From: a bacterium
GTDB taxonomy: Bacteria > T1Sed10-126
NCBI GenBank assembly: GCA_003554945.1
Contig: PWHN01000065.1
Span: forward strand, 1 to 7,634
DNA: 7,634 nt
Direction of reading: 5' to 3'
Shown here: in pieces, positions 1-7,634 of the stretch
How positions within the stretch are numbered: the stretch's first letter is position 1
Layout: the number at the start of each line of letters is the position of its first letter
Notes under the pieces: generated by a model
Databases searched by the model: none
The model's input: the letters and a program-made list of their open reading frames with translations, nothing else
Told to the model about the DNA's origin: nothing
Made by a program: the position numbers and the translations under genes

Positions 1-2064
1 GTGCAGTTCAAGTGGGAATTTGACCGGGAGGACGGCACTAATTCATTTGACAACGTAACCGTAGATGTAGACGAGCCGGTGGTGGATACCTACGACGTAT
101 CCCTTACATCGCTTGAGGGTCGGGGAGTAGTGGAAGTAGACGGGACAGAGCTGAGCGAGGAGACGGATTCGGTAAGCGTGGAGGATGGTGAAGAAGTAAC
201 GATAGAGGCGATAGCGGGAGTGGGGTATGCATTTGACCAGTGGACGGATGATGCGGCCGGAGAGGACGAGGTATTTACGGAGACGATAGAAAGCGATTAC
301 GACGTGGGAGTGGAGTTTGAGGAAGTAACTGTACTGGGCGAAAATCTGCTTGATAATCAATTTTATGAACAGTGGGTAGACGATGAACGACCGGAACATT
401 GGGAAAGTGACTACTCATTTGGTCCCAACTGGTATCCGACCCCCGAATACGCGCTCACCGGTAATTTTGGCGTTATGGTTGACGGTGGTGGTGAACGAGA
501 CCTTGATCAGGTGACGGATTTTACTACGGGTGATCTGCCGGAACCGGCGCCGGATGAAGCCCATGCGGAAGTATGGGTCAAAGGAACGGGCGATGTGCAG
601 CTGGGCCTTAAAGCGGGTCATGAGAGTTTCTGGCTCGATGATCCAGTGACTCTTGATGAAGATGGATGGACTGCAATTTCAACCACCCGAAGTGTTCATG
701 AAACGGGGGATTATGAGTGGGGTTTCCGAGTGAGGACTGATGAGGAAGGTGGTGAGTCGCCGGATGAGACAGTATATATCGGGGCGGCCTGGTTAAGTGA
801 TACTGCGCCGCCGGAAAACTGGACCGACCCGGAAGACTACGACATAACATTCCAGGTCCAGGATGAGGATGGTAATGATCTTGAAAATGCGGCCATAGAA
901 GTAGAAGGGGCTGAATACGAGGTCACAGATGTAAACGGTGAAGGGGTTATAGAGGGGGTTTTGGAAGGGACTTATAATTACGTTGTTGAAAAACATGGTG
1001 AATATGTATCTGGAAGTGTTAACATCGCCGACCAGGATGTAACAGAACAGGTAACACTGGCTGAGGCGGAAAACGTGAATATACTGCAGAATGAGTTTAT
1101 GGAGGATTGGGTTGGAGACGAGCTGAATTACTGGGATATAGGTACGCACGCCGGACAATCTGCTGCCGGCGAGGGGATGGTGGATGATTACAATATTCTT
1201 CACGAACACGATCGTTCCTCCAGCACAGAGCAGGAGGATGAACAGGATTTCCTTCACGGAGCTGCTTATGGTCAGGCAGGTCTGACATACCAGCTGGAAG
1301 TATGGGTTCGCGGTAGCAACGCCGAGGTAAGACTTGGCCTGCGTCGCCCCGGGTATGATTTATATGAACATAACCACTCTGAGCCTGAAGATTGGGATGT
1401 AGTCGATGAGGACTGGCAGAAAATTACGTTTGAGGTGGACAGGCCAACTGGACACGAAGCCGTTGATGGTAATTTCAGGATTCAACACCGGAAAGATGAC
1501 GATGCAGTTGAAGAAGTAGAGTTTGAAGTCGGTGCTGCCTGGTTGGCCGTCGAGGAGTCGCCTGAGTATTGGCCGGACGAAACAATGGATTACGAGGTTG
1601 AACCACGTGAGGGCTGGAACCTGTTTGGTTTACCGGTCGAACCGGATGAGCCGGCGGCGGGAGATATTTTTGCGGAACTGGAGGAATTCCCGACTATTAA
1701 TGTTCGGGCTTCGGATGGCTCACGTTCCCCGATCCGCTCCGGAGATGAGATGGAAATAGGCGATGGCAAAGGGTACATAGTTCTGATTGATGAAGATATA
1801 TCTAACCTCACGATTACCGGCGAGGCGGTTCACAGTATGACGCTTGAGTTGCATGCCGGCTGGAACGTAATCAGTGTTCCCGCTGTGATAGCGCCGAAAG
1901 AAGCCGGTGAGGTTTTTGATGACCTGGCGGACTACCCAGAAGTATTAAAAATAGCTGAAGACGGCACTGAGACTACTGTTGAAGAAAATGATGAAATAGA
2001 ACCGGGAGTAGGTTACTGGGTGCGCGTGGATGAATCCCATAGTATTGAGTTGAGTTCCGATTAA
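1..2064 (+). CDS. Multidomain acidic surface protein, 5'-truncated by the window edge
   Basis: This is the C-terminal 687 residues of a larger exported protein. The frame is open to base 1 with no signal peptide, and the first residues (SFDNVTV near 15-21) look like the last strand of a preceding beta-sandwich, so the GTG at base 1 is read as an internal valine. Visible domains: a divergent InlB B-repeat at about 31-108 (GEEVTIEA, GYAFDQW); a jelly-roll/CBM-like module at about 115-274; an Ig-like CarboxypepD_reg/PEGA-type domain at about 281-355; a second copy of the jelly-roll module at about 360-524; and two 'GWN' modules at 538-596 and 620-676. No cysteine is present, and acidic residues greatly outnumber basic ones. 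No enzyme motif is seen. The inferred role is adhesion or glycan binding at the cell surface. Unlike the next gene it has no FlgD/Por-type C-terminal domain. The next gene starts 22 bases downstream, suggesting one operon. Confidence 0.85.
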   Translation: MQFKWEFDREDGTNSFDNVTVDVDEPVVDTYDVSLTSLEGRGVVEVDGTELSEETDSVSVEDGEEVTIEAIAGVGYAFDQWTDDAAGEDEVFTETIESDYDVGVEFEEVTVLGENLLDNQFYEQWVDDERPEHWESDYSFGPNWYPTPEYALTGNFGVMVDGGGERDLDQVTDFTTGDLPEPAPDEAHAEVWVKGTGDVQLGLKAGHESFWLDDPVTLDEDGWTAISTTRSVHETGDYEWGFRVRTDEEGGESPDETVYIGAAWLSDTAPPENWTDPEDYDITFQVQDEDGNDLENAAIEVEGAEYEVTDVNGEGVIEGVLEGTYNYVVEKHGEYVSGSVNIADQDVTEQVTLAEAENVNILQNEFMEDWVGDELNYWDIGTHAGQSAAGEGMVDDYNILHEHDRSSSTEQEDEQDFLHGAAYGQAGLTYQLEVWVRGSNAEVRLGLRRPGYDLYEHNHSEPEDWDVVDEDWQKITFEVDRPTGHEAVDGNFRIQHRKDDDAVEEVEFEVGAAWLAVEESPEYWPDETMDYEVEPREGWNLFGLPVEPDEPAAGDIFAELEEFPTINVRASDGSRSPIRSGDEMEIGDGKGYIVLIDEDISNLTITGEAVHSMTLELHAGWNVISVPAVIAPKEAGEVFDDLADYPEVLKIAEDGTETTVEENDEIEPGVGYWVRVDESHSIELSSD
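343..1572 (+). repeat. Two diverged copies of a jelly-roll-like module within the first gene
   Basis: Module A (bases 343-822) and module B (1078-1572) share the same order of landmarks. Both open with N-[LI]-L-x-N-x-F-x3-WV (NLLDNQFYEQWV and NILQNEFMEDWV). Both have a central strand pair (HAEVWVKG...VQLGLKAG and QLEVWVRG...VRLGLRRPG). Both close with GAAWL followed about nine residues later by W (GAAWLSDTAPPENW and GAAWLAVEESPEYW). They are separated by an Ig-like domain. The fold resembles the CBM4/9-type beta-sandwich, but ligand residues cannot be assigned. The copies are clearly diverged, so the duplication is old. Confidence 0.75.
1612..2028 (+). repeat. Tandem C-terminal 'GWN' modules of the first gene
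   Basis: Two adjacent modules of about 60 residues each begin with GWN plus a short hydrophobic strand (GWNLFGLPV at residue 538 and GWNVISVPA at 620). Each continues with a DIFAELEEFP / EVFDDLADYP helix and ends with G-x-GY-[IW]-V (GKGYIV and GVGYWV). This GWN...GxGYW pattern is common at the C-termini of large bacterial surface proteins. Its exact role is not known to me; a cap or surface-association function is a guess. Confidence 0.7.
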
Positions 2065-2086: not shown

Positions 2087-3943
2087 ATGAATTGTAAACG
2101 AGTCCTGCTTTCTTTTGTCCTGATTGTCGCTTGCCTGTTATTTGTTCTGGGGACGGCTGTGGAGGTAGCTTTCGCCGGGGAGGACTGGCAGGAGAGAATA
2201 GTTATCCACGAGGATGGTTTCGATCGCGGTGCTGGTGATCAACCGCGCGACAATTTCTACTTTGGCATGGCGGAAGAACCCCGCCAGACTGGTAGTCCCG
2301 GACCAATGACAACCAGGTCCAGCAGCAGCTTACACTGGGAAGCCGAGGAAAGTGACCTGTTTCACTACGAGACCGAAATCACAGAAGAGTATACCTGGCA
2401 GACAGTAGTTGATTTAAGAGTTAGCGATGATAATAATCCCGGGGAAGTAGAGCCGGAAATTATCTGGGGGAAAGAAAGCGACGAGGCAATGGGTAATATT
2501 CCAGATTACTTCGACGTCACGATGGATCTCAAGGATCGCCATGCAGAAGAGATTGTCGCCGAGGGGATTGATCTGACGGAAGCGGGTTCATTCGCCTGGG
2601 AGGACCCCGAGCTGATCAGCCTCAGGCGCCGGCCCGACCAGGCTTTGTTAGCCGTCACCATAGAGGTTGAGCGGAACGACATTTTTGATCTTGATTACAA
2701 AGTCACCGATGAGCAAGGGGAAGCGCTTGAAGGGGCTGAAGTAGTGCTGGACGATTATGAGGGAAAAACTGATTTGGAGGGAGAACTAACCTTTGCGGAC
2801 CTGCAGGCAGACAAGTATTCTTTCTCGGTTGCCAGAGAAGGGTATGAAGATGTAAAGGAGTCAGTCCAGTTAGAGGGGGATATGAAACAGGAAATTACTC
2901 TAACGGAAGTTGAGGATACCGAGCCGGAGCTTGTTGAAAACCCCGGATTTGAAGAAATACAGCGTCCTTTTGCCGGTGAAATGATATCGACCGGAGATGC
3001 ACTTGAAGTAAAGTCTTTATATGACGGGAACAAAGGCGACACCGTCGCTATCAATTTTGCGGATGAACTGAGCAAGAAAGTCCCTGTCCAAGAAAACAAT
3101 AAGATGCAGAAGCTTGATGCAAGTCTTGAATCAGATTCGCTTGAGCCTGGCGAATATCCAGTGAAGTTTGAATACCTCGCCGCCGGCGGTGTAATCAGTT
3201 CTGATAGCAGGGTAATCACTGTAACTGAGCAGGAAGTTGAAACTGCCGAAGGGGAGAAAGTTAGCTTTAATAACAATTCACTTAAGTTGAGTTTCGCCGA
3301 TTCAGCAACCGTTAGCGTGACACCCTATAATGGGAGTAATGTCCAGGGAATGAGCGGTGAAGAAACAGTGCAGTTAAGTGGGGAGAGTGGAAATAATAGA
3401 CGAAAATTGATTGAAAATTCGGCTTACGAAATTAAAGCTTCCGCTGCAGAATCTCCCGAACTTACGATTAGTTACGAGCATGTTGCAGAAAATCTGGACC
3501 CCGCGGAGGAAGAGTCGCTTAAACTATACCGGTTGAACGATGACGGGCAGAGCTGGAGCGACGAAGCGGTTCGCACACAGGAGATCAACACTGACGAGCA
3601 GACTGTGACTGCCGAGCTTGAGCACTTTTCGGTCTATGCGCTGCTGGTTGAAACCGCGGACGCATACGAGGAAGACTACGTCTACTCCTGGCCGAATCCA
3701 TATAGAGCACCGGACGAAGATGACGGCATTAAATTTGAGCTTCCTGAAGAGTTTGGTAACAATGGCGGGGAAGTGACCCTGGAAGTTTATAACATTAACG
3801 GCCAGAGACTTGTTGAGAAGTCTTTGGATATAAACGGATACCAAGCCGAATGGAAAGACCCTGATCTTGCTTCCGGCTCCTATATTTACGTGATTGAAGG
3901 TAACGGTGAAACCTGTTCCGACAAGTTTGCGATCATCAGGTAA
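2087..3943 (+). CDS. Secreted multidomain protein with FlgD-like / type-A sorting-like C-terminal domain
   Basis: 618 aa. ATG is preceded by AGGAG at 2072-2076, ten bases upstream. Residues 1-30 form a signal peptide, with likely cleavage at AFA|GEDW. Residues 31-195 form a domain shared with the gene at 5396 (EDWQER, NFYFGM, EEYTW, IIWGKE, MGNIP, VTMDL, then an FxWEDP-like strand). It resembles the N-terminal beta-sandwich often found in proteins that end in a Por/FlgD-type domain. Residues 200-273 are an Ig-like CarboxypepD_reg domain (GEALEGAEV, GYEDVKESVQL). Residues 281-520 are further beta-rich sequence ending in ESLKLYRL...W...EHFSVYALL. Residues 531-618 match the FlgD_ig / T9SS type-A sorting pattern: SWPNPYRAP, VTLEVYNINGQRL, LASGSYIYVI, terminal KFAIIR. 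The only cysteine in the mature chain is C610. Inferred role: surface or secreted structural/adhesive protein, possibly cargo of the barrel encoded next. No catalytic motif is seen. Confidence 0.85.
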   Translation: MNCKRVLLSFVLIVACLLFVLGTAVEVAFAGEDWQERIVIHEDGFDRGAGDQPRDNFYFGMAEEPRQTGSPGPMTTRSSSSLHWEAEESDLFHYETEITEEYTWQTVVDLRVSDDNNPGEVEPEIIWGKESDEAMGNIPDYFDVTMDLKDRHAEEIVAEGIDLTEAGSFAWEDPELISLRRRPDQALLAVTIEVERNDIFDLDYKVTDEQGEALEGAEVVLDDYEGKTDLEGELTFADLQADKYSFSVAREGYEDVKESVQLEGDMKQEITLTEVEDTEPELVENPGFEEIQRPFAGEMISTGDALEVKSLYDGNKGDTVAINFADELSKKVPVQENNKMQKLDASLESDSLEPGEYPVKFEYLAAGGVISSDSRVITVTEQEVETAEGEKVSFNNNSLKLSFADSATVSVTPYNGSNVQGMSGEETVQLSGESGNNRRKLIENSAYEIKASAAESPELTISYEHVAENLDPAEEESLKLYRLNDDGQSWSDEAVRTQEINTDEQTVTAELEHFSVYALLVETADAYEEDYVYSWPNPYRAPDEDDGIKFELPEEFGNNGGEVTLEVYNINGQRLVEKSLDINGYQAEWKDPDLASGSYIYVIEGNGETCSDKFAIIR

Positions 3944-3947
3944 GGTG
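3942..3947 (+). promoter_or_regulatory. Ribosome binding site that fixes the TTG start at 3955
   Basis: AAGGTG overlaps the stop codon of the preceding gene and lies 7 bases before TTG at 3955-3957. The reading frame then enters a clear signal peptide (RQTKRWLLVLLAV). The overlap of stop codon and ribosome binding site suggests coupled translation. Confidence 0.75.
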
Positions 3948-3954
3948 AATTATT

Positions 3955-4887
3955 TTGAGACAAACTAAACGTTGGCTTCTGGTCCTACTGGCGGTAATGG
4001 CGGTAGTAATCGTCCGTGCGCCAGCCTACGGTGGTTTGGAAGGAAGTGCCGCCGAATACCTGCGCACGCAGGTCTCGCCCCGTATGGGGGCGATGAGCGC
4101 CGGGGTCGCGCTGGAAGCCGACGTCTTTAACAACCCGGCCGCGCTCCACCAGCGCCGGCAAAGAAGCGGAGGTTTTGGCTACCGCACCGGCGCCGGCGAG
4201 TTTGACTACTATTCGGCCAGCTACAGTCAGCCGCTGGGTCAGGCCGGAGCACTTGGCCTGGGAGTCAGGTATTTTGGTATTGATCACGAGGAACGCTTCG
4301 ACCCAGATGAGGACCATTACGGCGGCGATTTTTCTCACGACGGGATGGCGGCGGCCCTACACTACAGCAGTTGGGTGAATTTACCGGGACTGGCCGAACC
4401 GTTGAGCTACAGCCTGGGAGCGAAAGGAATCCACGACGGCATAGACGACGAGTCGGCCTCGGCCCTGGCCATGGATGCCGGACTGCATTATAGCTTCAGC
4501 GATATGCCCCTGAAGGCCGGGCTGACGCTGCAAAACCTTGGAAGCGACCTGGAATACATTAAGAAGTCCGAATCACTGCCCACCAACGTGCGCGCCGGTC
4601 TGGCCTACAAAATTGATGTAGTTTTTCTCCCTCCTATAACGATCGCCGGTGACGCGGAATACGATGTGAATGACAGTTACAACCGCTACGACGCCGGGGT
4701 TGAGCTGACACCTCTGGTGGGTTTTGATTTGCGGGCCGGCTATCGAACAACTTCCGACGAGGAGTTGGACAGCAATTTAACCACCGGTTTTGGTCTGCAA
4801 CTTAACGGCTTGCGTCTGGATTACGCCTACACGCCCGGGGACGAGCTGGAGAATGAGAATAGCCTCTTCATAACGACAAGCTTTTAA
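3955..4887 (+). CDS. PorV/PorQ (UPF0164)-family outer-membrane beta-barrel protein
   Basis: 310 aa with a TTG start. Signal peptide at about 1-26 (RWLLVLLAVMAVVIV, then APAYGG). The mature N-terminus follows the family pattern of a Gly/Ala-rich plug with an Asn-Pro-Ala landmark: YLRTQVSPRMGAMSAGVA at 35-52 and NNPAAL at 59-64. Alternating amphipathic strands follow (YYSASYSQPLG, LGLGVRYFGI, YSLGAKGI). The family hallmark is TLQNLG at 191-196, with LPTNVRAGLAY at 208-218. The chain ends LFITTSF, and a terminal Phe is typical of outer-membrane barrels inserted by BamA. About 310 aa is close to the usual family length. It starts 11 bases after the gene for a protein with a sorting-like C-terminal domain. 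In Bacteroidota, PorV shuttles such cargo at the outer membrane; a similar partnership here is inference. UPF0164 members are also discussed as FadL-like uptake proteins, so transport is an alternative. By eye it looks more GC-rich than its neighbours. Confidence 0.85.
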   Translation: MRQTKRWLLVLLAVMAVVIVRAPAYGGLEGSAAEYLRTQVSPRMGAMSAGVALEADVFNNPAALHQRRQRSGGFGYRTGAGEFDYYSASYSQPLGQAGALGLGVRYFGIDHEERFDPDEDHYGGDFSHDGMAAALHYSSWVNLPGLAEPLSYSLGAKGIHDGIDDESASALAMDAGLHYSFSDMPLKAGLTLQNLGSDLEYIKKSESLPTNVRAGLAYKIDVVFLPPITIAGDAEYDVNDSYNRYDAGVELTPLVGFDLRAGYRTTSDEELDSNLTTGFGLQLNGLRLDYAYTPGDELENENSLFITTSF

Positions 4888-4939
4888 TATTTTCCTTCTC
4901 GGAGGTCTCCGGTGTTAATTTTTTAAAGAGGTGTAGCCG

Positions 4940-5077
4940 TTGGCCAGTTTTCGTTCTCACCCACGAGCTTACCTATCTTTTAAAGAATACTTGTTTGGCG
5001 TGGTCCTGACAAAATACCCCTTATTCCGTCATTCCGGGCAAGCGACCGCAGGGAGCGCGACCCGGAATCCATCTTGA
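4940..5077 (+). pseudogene. Short TTG ORF, possibly the 5' remnant of a gene interrupted by a repeat
   Basis: AAAGAGGTG (4925-4933) sits 6 bases ahead of TTG at 4940. This is as good a ribosome binding site as those of the real genes, 52 bases after the upstream stop. The frame encodes 45 aa beginning MASFRSHPRAYLSFKEYLFG. The last third (from about RHSGQ to RNPS) is simply translation of the inverted repeat at 5027-5073, and the frame stops just past it at TGA 5075-5077. The first ~30 residues (KEYLFGVVLTKYPLF) could be the start of a membrane or small protein whose remainder was lost when the repeat arrived. It could equally be a chance ORF. No family is recognised. Confidence 0.25.
5027..5073. 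repeat. REP-like inverted repeat (GTCATTCCGGG...CCCGGAATCCA type)
   Basis: ATTCCGGG (5031-5038) and CCCGGAAT (5061-5068) are perfect inverted copies around a 22-base, GC-rich centre that itself holds GCG/CGC complementarity. The flanks read CGTC on the left and CCATC on the right. Sequences of the form GTCATTCCGGG...CCCGGAATCCA are familiar as short dispersed palindromic repeats in many unrelated bacterial genomes. Only one copy is present here, so the dispersed status is recalled knowledge, not seen in the window. The stem is not followed by a T-run, so it is not a classic terminator. Confidence 0.6.
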
Positions 5078-5128
5078 ACTTGCCGTTTCGACCGGAGTCC
5101 AAGCCGGATAACTAAAACCGAACGATGA

Positions 5129-5150
5129 ATTGCGGATCGGTGTCCGCAAT
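5129..5150. repeat. Perfect 8-bp inverted repeat (hairpin) in the intergenic region
   Basis: ATTGCGGA (5129-5136) and TCCGCAAT (5143-5150) pair perfectly around a 6-base loop TCGGTG. No T-run follows, so intrinsic termination is unlikely. It could be a second palindromic repeat arm, an operator-like dyad, or an RNA hairpin in the leader of the next operon. The function is unknown. Confidence 0.5.
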
Positions 5151-5287
5151 GATGACCAATAGGTCAAACCCGTAAGAATAGAACAGGCGCTAAACATTTA
5201 CTTTTTAGAATTATTCCCTTATTTTTTGGTTTTTCCTTGATTATCCTTGTTCTAATAGTTTTGGGTCTGCTCTACATCTCAAGTGAT

Positions 5288-5318
5288 CCGCTGTTTGCTT
5301 CTCAAAGCGGAAATTTTT
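5288..5318 (+). terminator. Possible Rho-independent terminator upstream of the second cargo/barrel unit
   Basis: CCGC (5288-5291) pairs with GCGG (5307-5310). After a 2-base bulge, TTTG (5294-5297) pairs with CAAA (5303-5306) around the loop CTTCT. AAA and then a run of five T (5314-5318) follow. The stem is short and bulged, so efficiency is doubtful. If real it would end transcription from the upstream operon about 80 bases before the next start and imply a separate promoter for 5396. Confidence 0.35.
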
Positions 5319-5385
5319 GAGTAAACTATTTTTCTACAGGTTAGAGAAGTTATAGATAGCCACCTGAATTCCTTGGTTTAATTTT

Positions 5386-5390
5386 GGAGG
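5386..5390 (+). promoter_or_regulatory. GGAGG ribosome binding site that decides the start at TTG 5396
   Basis: GGAGG lies 5 bases before TTG at 5396-5398. An in-frame TTG at 5384 would overlap the same GGAGG and add only four residues without a ribosome binding site of its own. The 5396 start is therefore preferred. Confidence 0.85.
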
Positions 5391-5395
5391 CCACC

Positions 5396-6298
5396 TTGTT
5401 CTTTCGAAATCATTCGCTCCGCGACCTATTTGTTTTTGCTTTGTGCACCTGTCTGTTTCTCTTGGGCGGGACTGTATTTACTTCGGGTGCTGTTTGTGCC
5501 GAGGACTGGGAAGAAAAACTACACGTTTACGAAGATGAATTTGAAAACGAAAAACCTGGGGCTAATTTTTACTTTGGGATGGATAATGAATCAGATACAC
5601 AGGAACAAGACTTTATAGACCCGTCGGACGACCAGGTCTGGTGGGTTGATGACGAGGATAACTATATCCACATAACCGAGCATACCTCAAGCTATACCTG
5701 GAATACTGAAATCGAGCTTATAACACCGGACGAAGGCGAACACGGAGATATTGGCCCGGAAATCAGTTGGGGACAATCTGGGAATGAGGATATGGGGAAT
5801 ATCCCGGCCGGGTATGAAGTGACCATGGAGTTAGATAGAGGATATGGGAGCGGAACACTGGCGGAAGATTTGGATCTTACCCAGGAGGGAGAAATTGTCT
5901 GGGATGACCCGGTATTTGAAAGCTTTACCGATGAGGATGTAGCCTACCTTGAAGCCACGATTGTTGCAGAACCTGCTGGTGTAGAAAGAGTGGTTGATTT
6001 TCGGGTGGGGCCTAACCCGTTTCGAGCTGAAGAACATGATAAAGTTAGTTTTCAGTTTCAAAAATATGATGAAGGAGCTGGTGTGGATTTTGAAATAGAA
6101 ATTTACACTATAACCGGGAGGTTGGTTTACGAAGAAAGCTTCTATGGAATTGCTGATGAAGTTATGGAAGACGGGAAACCTTACAGCCAGCTACACTGGG
6201 AAGATGCGGATGATGTGGCCAGCGGACACTATATCTACCGGTTGAAAGACAACAACTCCGGCGACGAGGAGACCGGGCAGCTGGTGATCATCCGATGA
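5396..6298 (+). CDS. Short secreted paralogue with FlgD-like / type-A sorting-like C-terminal domain
   Basis: 300 aa from the TTG at 5396. The signal peptide is residues 1-35 ([16 protein letters not shown]), with likely cleavage AVCA|EDWEE. The C at 34 is not in a good lipobox, as V precedes it. Residues 36-190 align with residues 31-195 of the protein from 2087: EDWEEK/EDWQER, NFYFGM in both, SYTW/EYTW, EISWGQ/EIIWGK, MGNIP in both, [40 protein letters not shown]. Residues 199-300 are the C-terminal sorting-like domain: [45 protein letters not shown]. Compared with the longer paralogue it lacks the whole middle (Ig-like and following domains), so it is a minimal N-domain plus C-domain form. 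The mature chain has no cysteine. The stop overlaps the start of the next barrel gene (ATGA). The role is unknown; a surface or secreted partner of that barrel is inferred. Confidence 0.85.
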
Positions 6299-7634
6299 GA
6301 TTGAAAAAGTTTACCCGGCCTGGAGTATTGATAATAGGGATAATCATAACTCAACTGCTGTTGGCAGGACCTGCTGTGGCGGGGGACTGGGGAGATGCAA
6401 CGGCGCCGGTGCTGGAGCTGGGAGCCGGAGGAGCTCTGCCGGCGATGGGGGGCGCGGGTCAGGCTGCGGTTAGCGGACCCTCAGCCCTGCAGTATAACCC
6501 TGCCGGCCTTTTGAATGGAGGCAAAAGGGAGTTTGAATTTTCCTACCAGTCGATGGTGGAAGGGATAAATTACGGCAACCTCGATTATGTCCAGCCACAC
6601 AGTCGGACAAGTAGTTGGGCGGGCGGGCTTCGTTATTTAAGCTACGGTAGCGTGGATGAGACGGACCGGAGAGATGATGGTTTTTTAACAGAGGAAGGTT
6701 CATTCAGCGATGCGGATGTGGTGCTGTCAGGGGCTTATGCAGGAGAGTTGGCTGATAATATCAACTGGGGAGTGGGCACGCGGCTGTTCAGGCTGGAGCT
6801 TGCGGACGAGGATGCGATGGGCCTGTCTCTGGACGGTGGTCTGCAGTGGCATTCGCCGGACCCGGATCTGCCTGTTTCGGCAGGACTCACGGCTCAGAAT
6901 TTGGGTATGGGCGTGGAGTTTGACGACAAGACTGAGGACCTTCCCTTGCTGTGGAAGGCGGGGGGAAGTATTTACCTGGAAAAATATGTCGGTTATGACG
7001 TGCGAGTGCACGGGGATATAGAGCATCAAATACCTGATTCGGAAGTATTCCCGAGACTGGGTGGCGAGTGGAATTTTTACGAGGGACTTTTCAGCCTGCG
7101 GCTGGGATATGAGGGAAGTATGAATGTTGATGATGGATTATCTTACGGGGTGGGTGTATCCTCGCCGGATGGGGGGTTGAAATTTGATTATGCGTTGGTG
7201 CCGTTTGGAGATTTTGGGAATATGCATCGGCTGAGTCTTACCTATGATCTGCCGGCCCCTGACCCGGAACCAGAACCTGAACCAGAACCTGAACCAGAAC
7301 CAGAACCAGAACCGGAACCGGAGCCTGAACCCGAGCCGGAGCCTGAACCTGAACCGGAACCCGAACCTGAAATTGACCTCGAGCCGGAGGATTATTATGA
7401 AATGGGGCAGGATGAATTCGAAGAGGATAATTATGAAAGGGCTGCAGAATACTTTGAATCTGCGGCAGATGGTCGTCCTGAGCATGTAGATACTTACCTC
7501 TGGTGGGCCGTGACTCTCTATCGGTTGGGTGACCTGCAGCAGGCAGCAGACAAATTTGAACACGTCTTAGAACTGGACCCGGGGAACCCAACCGCGCTGA
7601 ACGATTTAAAAACTATTCGCGAGAGAAAAATGGA
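6295..7634 (+). CDS. PorV/UPF0164-like beta-barrel with Pro-Glu linker and TPR domain, 3'-truncated
   Basis: The ATG at 6295 overlaps the preceding TGA by four bases (ATGA), with GGTGAT at 6283-6288 as a partial ribosome binding site; translation is probably coupled. The frame stays open to the window end, giving 446 complete codons. Signal peptide 1-29 ([23 protein letters not shown]). The barrel covers about 37-319: a Gly/Ala-rich start with [18 protein letters not shown] and QYNPAGLL at 66-73, alternating strands, and the family hallmark AQNLG at 200-204 with LPLLWKAG at 216-223. The last strand, [10 protein letters not shown], is at 311-320. Residues 324-359 are (PE)18. Residues 366-432 form two TPR-like helical pairs ([18 protein letters not shown]; then [18 protein letters not shown] and ELDPGNP). 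The tail should lie in the periplasm and may bind protein partners or reach peptidoglycan (inference). Other domains may follow beyond the edge. The chain contains no cysteine. Confidence 0.85.
7264..7371 (+). repeat. (Pro-Glu)18 hexanucleotide-like repeat between barrel and TPR domain
   Basis: Eighteen consecutive CCN-GAR codon pairs encode an uninterrupted PE dipeptide repeat, residues 324-359 of the barrel protein. All four Pro codons and both Glu codons are used, so the DNA is not a perfect repeat: selection for the peptide, not simple recent slippage, seems to maintain it. Pro-rich charged repeats of this kind form stiff, extended spacers, as in TonB (which uses both EP and KP); here the spacer is purely acidic. 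Confidence 0.9.

Follow-up and report, generated by a model that had tools for sequence, protein, structure and literature searches.

A probable divergent type IX secretion system in an uncultured soda-lake lineage, with PorV-class carrier genes paired to type-A-like cargo genes

The window analysed here is the whole of contig C6 (PWHN01000065.1, 7634 bases) of a bacterial draft genome, the host (G000; 2.2 Mb, 121 contigs, 93.5% complete). It holds two gene units, each of which consists of a secreted cargo protein with a C-terminal domain (CTD) like those sorted by the type IX secretion system (T9SS) and, immediately behind it, an outer-membrane barrel of the PorV/PorQ family that may be its carrier. 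Along the contig the order is an upstream protein, cargo A, barrel A, a gene-free gap of about 500 bases, cargo B and barrel B (Table 1). The original prediction had described each unit as a protein with a signal peptide, a conserved N-terminal domain and a CTD ending in IIR, followed at once by a PorV-type barrel, and in all of this it was right: both cargos start with a signal-peptide-like sequence, the gap between cargo A and barrel A is 11 bases, the start of barrel B overlaps the stop of cargo B (ATGA), and the landmarks NPA and QNLG are present in both barrels.

Table 1. Features of the window, and of two further host contigs named in the text
Feature	Position	Strand	Description
Upstream protein	1-2064		open at contig start, 22 bases before cargo A
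Cargo A, 618 aa	2087..3943	+	signal peptide, passenger domain, CarboxypepD_reg/PEGA-like domain, CTD
CTD of cargo A, aa 529-618	3671..3940	+	type-A-like, ends AIIR
Barrel A, 310 aa	3955..4887	+	PorV/PorQ-family carrier, NF033709 121 bits (cut-off 90)
Cargo B, 300 aa from TTG 5396	5396..6298	+	signal peptide, passenger domain, CTD
CTD of cargo B, aa 205-304 of the listed reading frame	5996..6295	+	ends VIIR
Barrel B	6295..7634	+	PorV/PorQ-family carrier with C-terminal extension, NF033709 131 bits (cut-off 90)
CCTGAA hexamer array, 19 copies	7258..7371	+	encodes the Pro-Glu linker from barrel B to the TPR domain
Host SprA fragment	L118 (G000:C25) 3-857	minus	contig ends after N-terminal part
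ExbB, ExbD, TonB-like and TPR genes	L040 (G000:C102) 4181-10297	minus	directly downstream of cargo-carrier-carrier

The passenger domain occupies about residues 10-195 of cargo A and is common to cargo B; in cargo A it is followed by the CarboxypepD_reg/PEGA-like domain at residues 205-273. Barrel A begins with TTG, with AAGGTGA upstream, and a TTG is also the likelier start of cargo B (GGAGG lies just upstream of it), whose open reading frame opens at 5384. Barrel B runs off the contig, its reading frame (6295-7632) being open at the contig end, and its tail is made up of a Pro-Glu repeat and then a TPR domain. This tail is expected to lie on the periplasmic side, and several other barrels carry a TPR tail as well.

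Against TIGR04183, the model of T9SS type A CTDs (cut-off 23), the CTD of cargo A scores 27.9 bits and is thus over the cut-off. With a CTD profile of our own, of which the window CTDs are themselves members, the CTDs of cargos A and B reach 70 and 84 bits, respectively. The PorU model likewise finds the CTD of cargo B, with its own CTD part (E 9e-8), and on the strength of these two matches, to our profile and to PorU, we read it as homologous to type A CTDs; the same profile matches the CTD of PorZ (E 1.4e-4). An AlphaFold2 model of cargo B (mean pLDDT 58.7) is confident in the CTD and weak in the rest, and no fold is therefore claimed for the passenger domain. The best structural match of the CTD is 8glk_D, a type A CTD in complex with SprA-PorV (Z 8.9, root-mean-square deviation 1.9, 75 residues), with which unrelated immunoglobulin-like domains tie within 1 Z unit.

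Both barrels exceed the cut-off of the PorV/PorQ subfamily model NF033709. Their scores against the equivalog models lie below the cut-offs, at 39-41 bits for PorV (NF033710, cut-off 250) and 85-98 bits for PorQ (NF033711, cut-off 220), which makes PorQ the nearest named equivalog. Against the PorP/SprF model PF11751 barrel A scores 18.9 bits, under the cut-off of 22.3, and barrel B gives no match; neither barrel matches the FadL/Toluene_X Pfam family up to E 1, nor any TpsB/BamA-type family. A profile built from 28 barrels matches PorV of the Flavobacterium johnsoniae SprA complex with E 7.8e-46 and the FadL-family protein TodX with E 5e-10. The AlphaFold2 model of barrel B (pLDDT 89.5), which we read as a PorV/FadL-fold barrel of about 14 strands, has PorV (8gl6/6h3i) as its best match (Foldseek 3e-16; Z 33.9, root-mean-square deviation 3.3 over 277 residues) and FadL-type barrels as the next best (Z ~30.5, root-mean-square deviation 2.8 over 265). 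In sequence and in fold, barrel B is thus nearer to the PorV that works with the SprA translocon than to FadL.

The two pairs in the window exemplify an arrangement found throughout the genome, in which nearly every CTD cargo gene is followed by a barrel gene of its own. NF033709 finds 11 strong barrels in the host (79-164 bits), and TIGR04183 finds 10 places with a CTD, from which 12 CTD proteins emerged once the flanks had been read and our own profile had been scanned. Ten of the 11 PorV-class barrels lie directly downstream of a CTD gene on the same strand, with a 4-base overlap in five of these ten pairs, and the eleventh, on contig C102, follows a paired barrel. On the cargo side, 10 of the 12 CTD proteins are encoded directly upstream of a barrel. 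One of the remaining two stands in tandem before a paired one on contig C108 (L045, 4876-19750, minus strand), where two CTD proteins of 3154+ and 1254 aa precede one PorV-TPR barrel, and here one carrier may possibly serve two cargos. The other, on contig C36 (L047, 3-3824), has no barrel behind it; because its counterpart in a sister genus (L084) does have one, the host copy seems to have lost its carrier or to have been parted from it. The number of pairs expected by chance in the host, at about one gene per kb, is about 0.03, an estimate based on independence of the genes, an assumption that paralogues violate.

The pairing is also kept outside the host. The sister-genus genome, G001, is the only other member of the family in the returned set of compared genomes, and it is the metagenome-assembled genome (MAG) CSSed10_354m from soda-lake sediment; the prefix CSSed10 of its isolate name occurs in PMC6146748. 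All seven of the PorV-class barrels that were read there, being over the cut-off or TPR-tailed, follow a CTD gene. Across the 12 other genomes, each of a separate genus and, beyond G001, related to the host at the level of the same domain only, the best barrel follows a CTD gene in 10 (G001 included). Our own profiles include the host pairs and hence lean towards such pairs, and the low-scoring barrels of the same genomes, which are mostly FadL-like, serve as the control: none of these 18 follows a CTD gene.

The original prediction took the window for a tandem duplication of a whole unit, with the two cargos as clear paralogues. The cargos are indeed homologous, both in the N-terminal passenger domain (36% over 188 aa, E 5e-30) and in the CTD (33% over 96 aa, E 1e-8), but the barrels are only 28% identical, and the nearest kin of each CTD and barrel are found on other contigs. 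Barrel and CTD A are closest to a pair on contig C79, the cargo of which scores 24.0 bits against TIGR04183 and so passes the cut-off of 23, and barrel and CTD B are closest, within the host, to the pairs on contigs C118 and C23 (CTD 41-44%, barrel 39-42%). Judged by nearest neighbours, duplication of the whole unit was rejected: only the passenger domain is specifically common to the two cargos, and their CTD and barrel modules are of different subfamilies. The C79 cargo also matches models of leucine-rich-repeat proteins, through its repeats only.

The same contrast is seen elsewhere in the host, where the S8-peptidase cargos on contigs C118 and C45 have passengers that are alike (35% over 461 aa) and CTDs and barrels (28% over 72 aa and 31%, respectively) each of which is closer to other units. 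The trees of CTDs and of adjacent barrels agree in the host (r 0.58, p 5e-4) and in the host and G001 taken together, with permutation within genomes only (r 0.87, p 1e-4). In host bit scores, CTD similarity goes with barrel similarity (r 0.81, p 1e-4), whereas the correlations between passenger and barrel (r 0.17, p 0.13) and between passenger and CTD (r 0.14, p 0.17) are low. The CTD follows the adjacent barrel and not the passenger, and the window is therefore not a simple tandem duplication; these comparisons suggest that CTD and barrel transfer together, as one module, to different passengers. A coupling of CTD and barrel that leaves out the passenger is what one would expect of a recognition pair.

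The standard models of the translocon protein SprA, TIGR04189 and Pfam SprA_N (PF14349), found no match in the host; SprA_N did match several of the distant genomes. A broader profile was built from nine distant SprA proteins, and a second one added the members from G001 and from another compared genome, G029. With the nine-protein profile, SprA was found in G001, split over contigs C23 (E 9e-98) and C86 (E 4e-13) and also matching TIGR04189 (E 3e-21), and in G029 on contig C20 (E 2e-86); all three stretches represent divergent SprA that SprA_N misses. In the host, the profile that includes the G001 and G029 proteins found an N-terminal piece of SprA (E 3e-18), truncated where contig C25 ends, which is 68% identical to the G001 protein over 73 aa and has an O-antigen-ligase/TPR protein and a competence-family protein upstream of it. 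The absence of SprA that the standard models had suggested was thereby overturned, and because there is a piece in the host and SprA in G001, the lineage very likely has SprA. Since standard models miss divergent members, surveys of the T9SS that use them will undercount. In a further genome an 883-aa protein lies directly behind a CTD-carrier pair (L102, G027:C105, 766-3417, minus strand); it matches about 95 positions of the SprA profile weakly (E 7e-6) and may be a short barrel related to SprA.

In F. johnsoniae, the CTD of a type A cargo enters SprA, binds the loops of PorV and exits sideways together with PorV (PMC10994853). All type A cargos are served by one PorV, while type B cargos each have a PorP/SprF of their own (PMC12618676), and this carrier keeps the cargo on the surface (PMC12618676; PMC12635249). 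Taken together, our results make it likely that the host secretes type-A-like cargos by a divergent T9SS that provides them with dedicated PorV-class carriers, comparable to the SprF of type B cargos; the binding of CTD to barrel, its specificity, the retention at the surface and the role of the tail are what we infer. In such a system the cargo would cross the inner membrane by Sec and its CTD would fold in the periplasm, after which the CTD would enter the SprA barrel. The loops of the PorV-class barrel from the adjacent gene would take hold of it, and this barrel would carry the cargo sideways out onto the cell surface. The carrier would often be made together with its cargo, by translational coupling. 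Since no sortase was detected in the host, the cargo probably stays on its carrier at the surface, and the carrier's tail on the periplasmic side, which in barrel B is the Pro-Glu/TPR extension, may tether or couple it. Two dedicated cargo-shuttle pairs on a T9SS-like route, as first proposed, are thus supported by the pairing, by the likeness of the barrels to PorV and by SprA. Two outcomes that would have refuted the proposal were not observed: the adjacency is kept in relatives, and barrel B lies nearer to PorV than to FadL. The proposal had also allowed for a novel route, which is not needed, as a divergent T9SS is the simpler explanation with SprA present.

Several points weigh against a divergent T9SS with dedicated carriers. 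The CTD of cargo B scores 18.4 bits against TIGR04183, under the type A cut-off, and the SprA of the host is seen only as the 73-aa homologous piece at a contig end. The model of GldM has no match in any of the 13 genomes, and as these include genomes with a clear SprA, that result carries no information. For the catalytic domain of PorU, a host-only search with NF033707, run on a 93.5% complete genome with no positive control, gave C-terminal matches only. The coupling of CTD and barrel could also come about if the ends at which two genes adjoin are inherited together, and linked genes that co-duplicate likewise give matching trees, though not the contrast with the passenger.

Such co-duplication belongs to the alternative that survives best, an ordinary type A T9SS with redundant carriers, in which any barrel takes any CTD and adjacency serves to balance expression after duplication of a cassette. 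That co-duplication alone would yield matching trees speaks for it, as does the type A CTD pocket in Flavobacterium, which is plastic and mostly hydrophobic and has little sequence specificity (PMC10994853). We nevertheless regard it as unlikely, since the CTD tracks the barrel where the passenger does not, in cargos A and B as in the S8 peptidases, and some ten paired carriers are hard to explain when one serves all type A cargos in the species studied. Far less probable is that the barrel itself is the exporter, or a mere surface anchor, working independently of SprA much as in two-partner secretion. Adjacent, one-to-one cargo and barrel genes are typical of that kind of secretion, and the standard SprA models had no match in the host and the sister genus; but SprA is present with the broader profile, and the barrel is modelled with a PorV/FadL fold and has no TpsB/BamA-type match. 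That the barrels are FadL-type channels for hydrophobic compounds or accessory barrels of the β-barrel assembly machinery (BAM; PorV-fold barrels in Bacteroidota), with incidental CTD adjacency, is hardly credible, for although FadL and the BAM-associated PorV-fold barrels have the same fold (Z 26-30), PorV outscores both in sequence and fold, there is no FadL Pfam match, no CTD gene adjoins the FadL-like barrels of these genomes, and the pairing is far above chance.

The arrangement combines type-A-like CTDs and PorV-class barrels with the one-to-one pairing of type B. With the type A branch of Porphyromonas and Flavobacterium it shares the CTD fold, motifs of the TIGR04183 type, a PorV-fold barrel and SprA (in the host, a fragment), but where that branch has one PorV there are about ten PorV/PorQ-class barrels here, each behind its own cargo gene and with scores well short of the cut-offs for the PorV and PorQ equivalogs, and no PorU sortase was found in the host. 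The type B CTD/PorP-SprF systems (PMC12618676, PMC9143113) likewise have a cargo gene followed by its own carrier, and many such pairs per genome; the carriers here are instead of the PorV/PorQ family (121-131 bits), and neither window cargo matches the type B CTD model TIGR04131. The PorQ and PorV barrels of the attachment complex are of the same subfamily, from which the present ones differ in gene order, in copy number and in the TPR tail on barrel B and several others. FadL/TodX transporters are fold relatives of PorV, unlike the window barrels in scores, Pfam match and CTD neighbours.

Reports of the T9SS come from Bacteroidota, and other phyla of the Fibrobacterota-Chlorobiota-Bacteroidota group may have it too (PMC11285876). 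In the open-access literature we found no description of one PorV-class carrier per type A cargo, or of PorV families outside Bacteroidota. The current view, in which type A has one PorV and type B has dedicated carriers, contrasts with this lineage, whose natural cargo-carrier pairs and passenger swaps offer material for finding out what the CTD-carrier interface recognises. An uncultured soda-lake lineage without close relatives among the compared genomes would also join those with SprA-based secretion.

A possible source of energy is hinted at by the neighbours of some carriers. Host contig C102 has a cargo gene followed by two carrier genes and then by genes for ExbB, ExbD, a TonB-like protein and a TPR protein, and the ExbB-ExbD-TonB-TPR order recurs in G001 (L121). 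At five places (host C102, G004, two in G025, and G029), against about 0.3 expected, a PorV-class barrel gene has an ExbB gene downstream of it on its own strand and no more than about 4 kb away, the distance limit having been chosen after the data were seen; G029 has its carrier, ExbB and ExbD genes in direct succession. GldLM, too, belongs to the ExbBD/MotAB type of proton motor, which makes this neighbourhood noteworthy, and the link between carrier and ExbB as an energy source is only a lead. We speculate, with somewhat greater doubt than attaches to redundant carriers, that outside Bacteroidota type-A-like cargos are permanently anchored on their own carriers and are exported by a carrier-adjacent ExbB/ExbD-type motor, not by GldLM, perhaps via the TPR tails.

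With barrel B alone as the query no named relatives were found, and an alignment of the family was needed; it matched CSSed10_354m and one contig in a MAG labelled Candidatus Nealsonbacteria. That contig (L091, PWGJ01000035.1) carries a CTD-carrier pair of this family, and as Candidatus Nealsonbacteria is a group thought to be without an outer membrane, it is probably misbinned. The viral contigs searched held no relative. In the window itself, the upstream protein has a carbohydrate-binding-module-like domain in common with a cargo on contig C20 (39% over 168 aa) and no CTD of its own. The gap between the two units includes, at 5026-5072, a palindrome-like stretch (CATTCCGGGCAAGCG...CCCGGAATCCATC), missed by the inverted-repeat scan, that resembles REP-like elements. 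The host proteins are acidic, with a median isoelectric point of 4.55, in keeping with a saline habitat.

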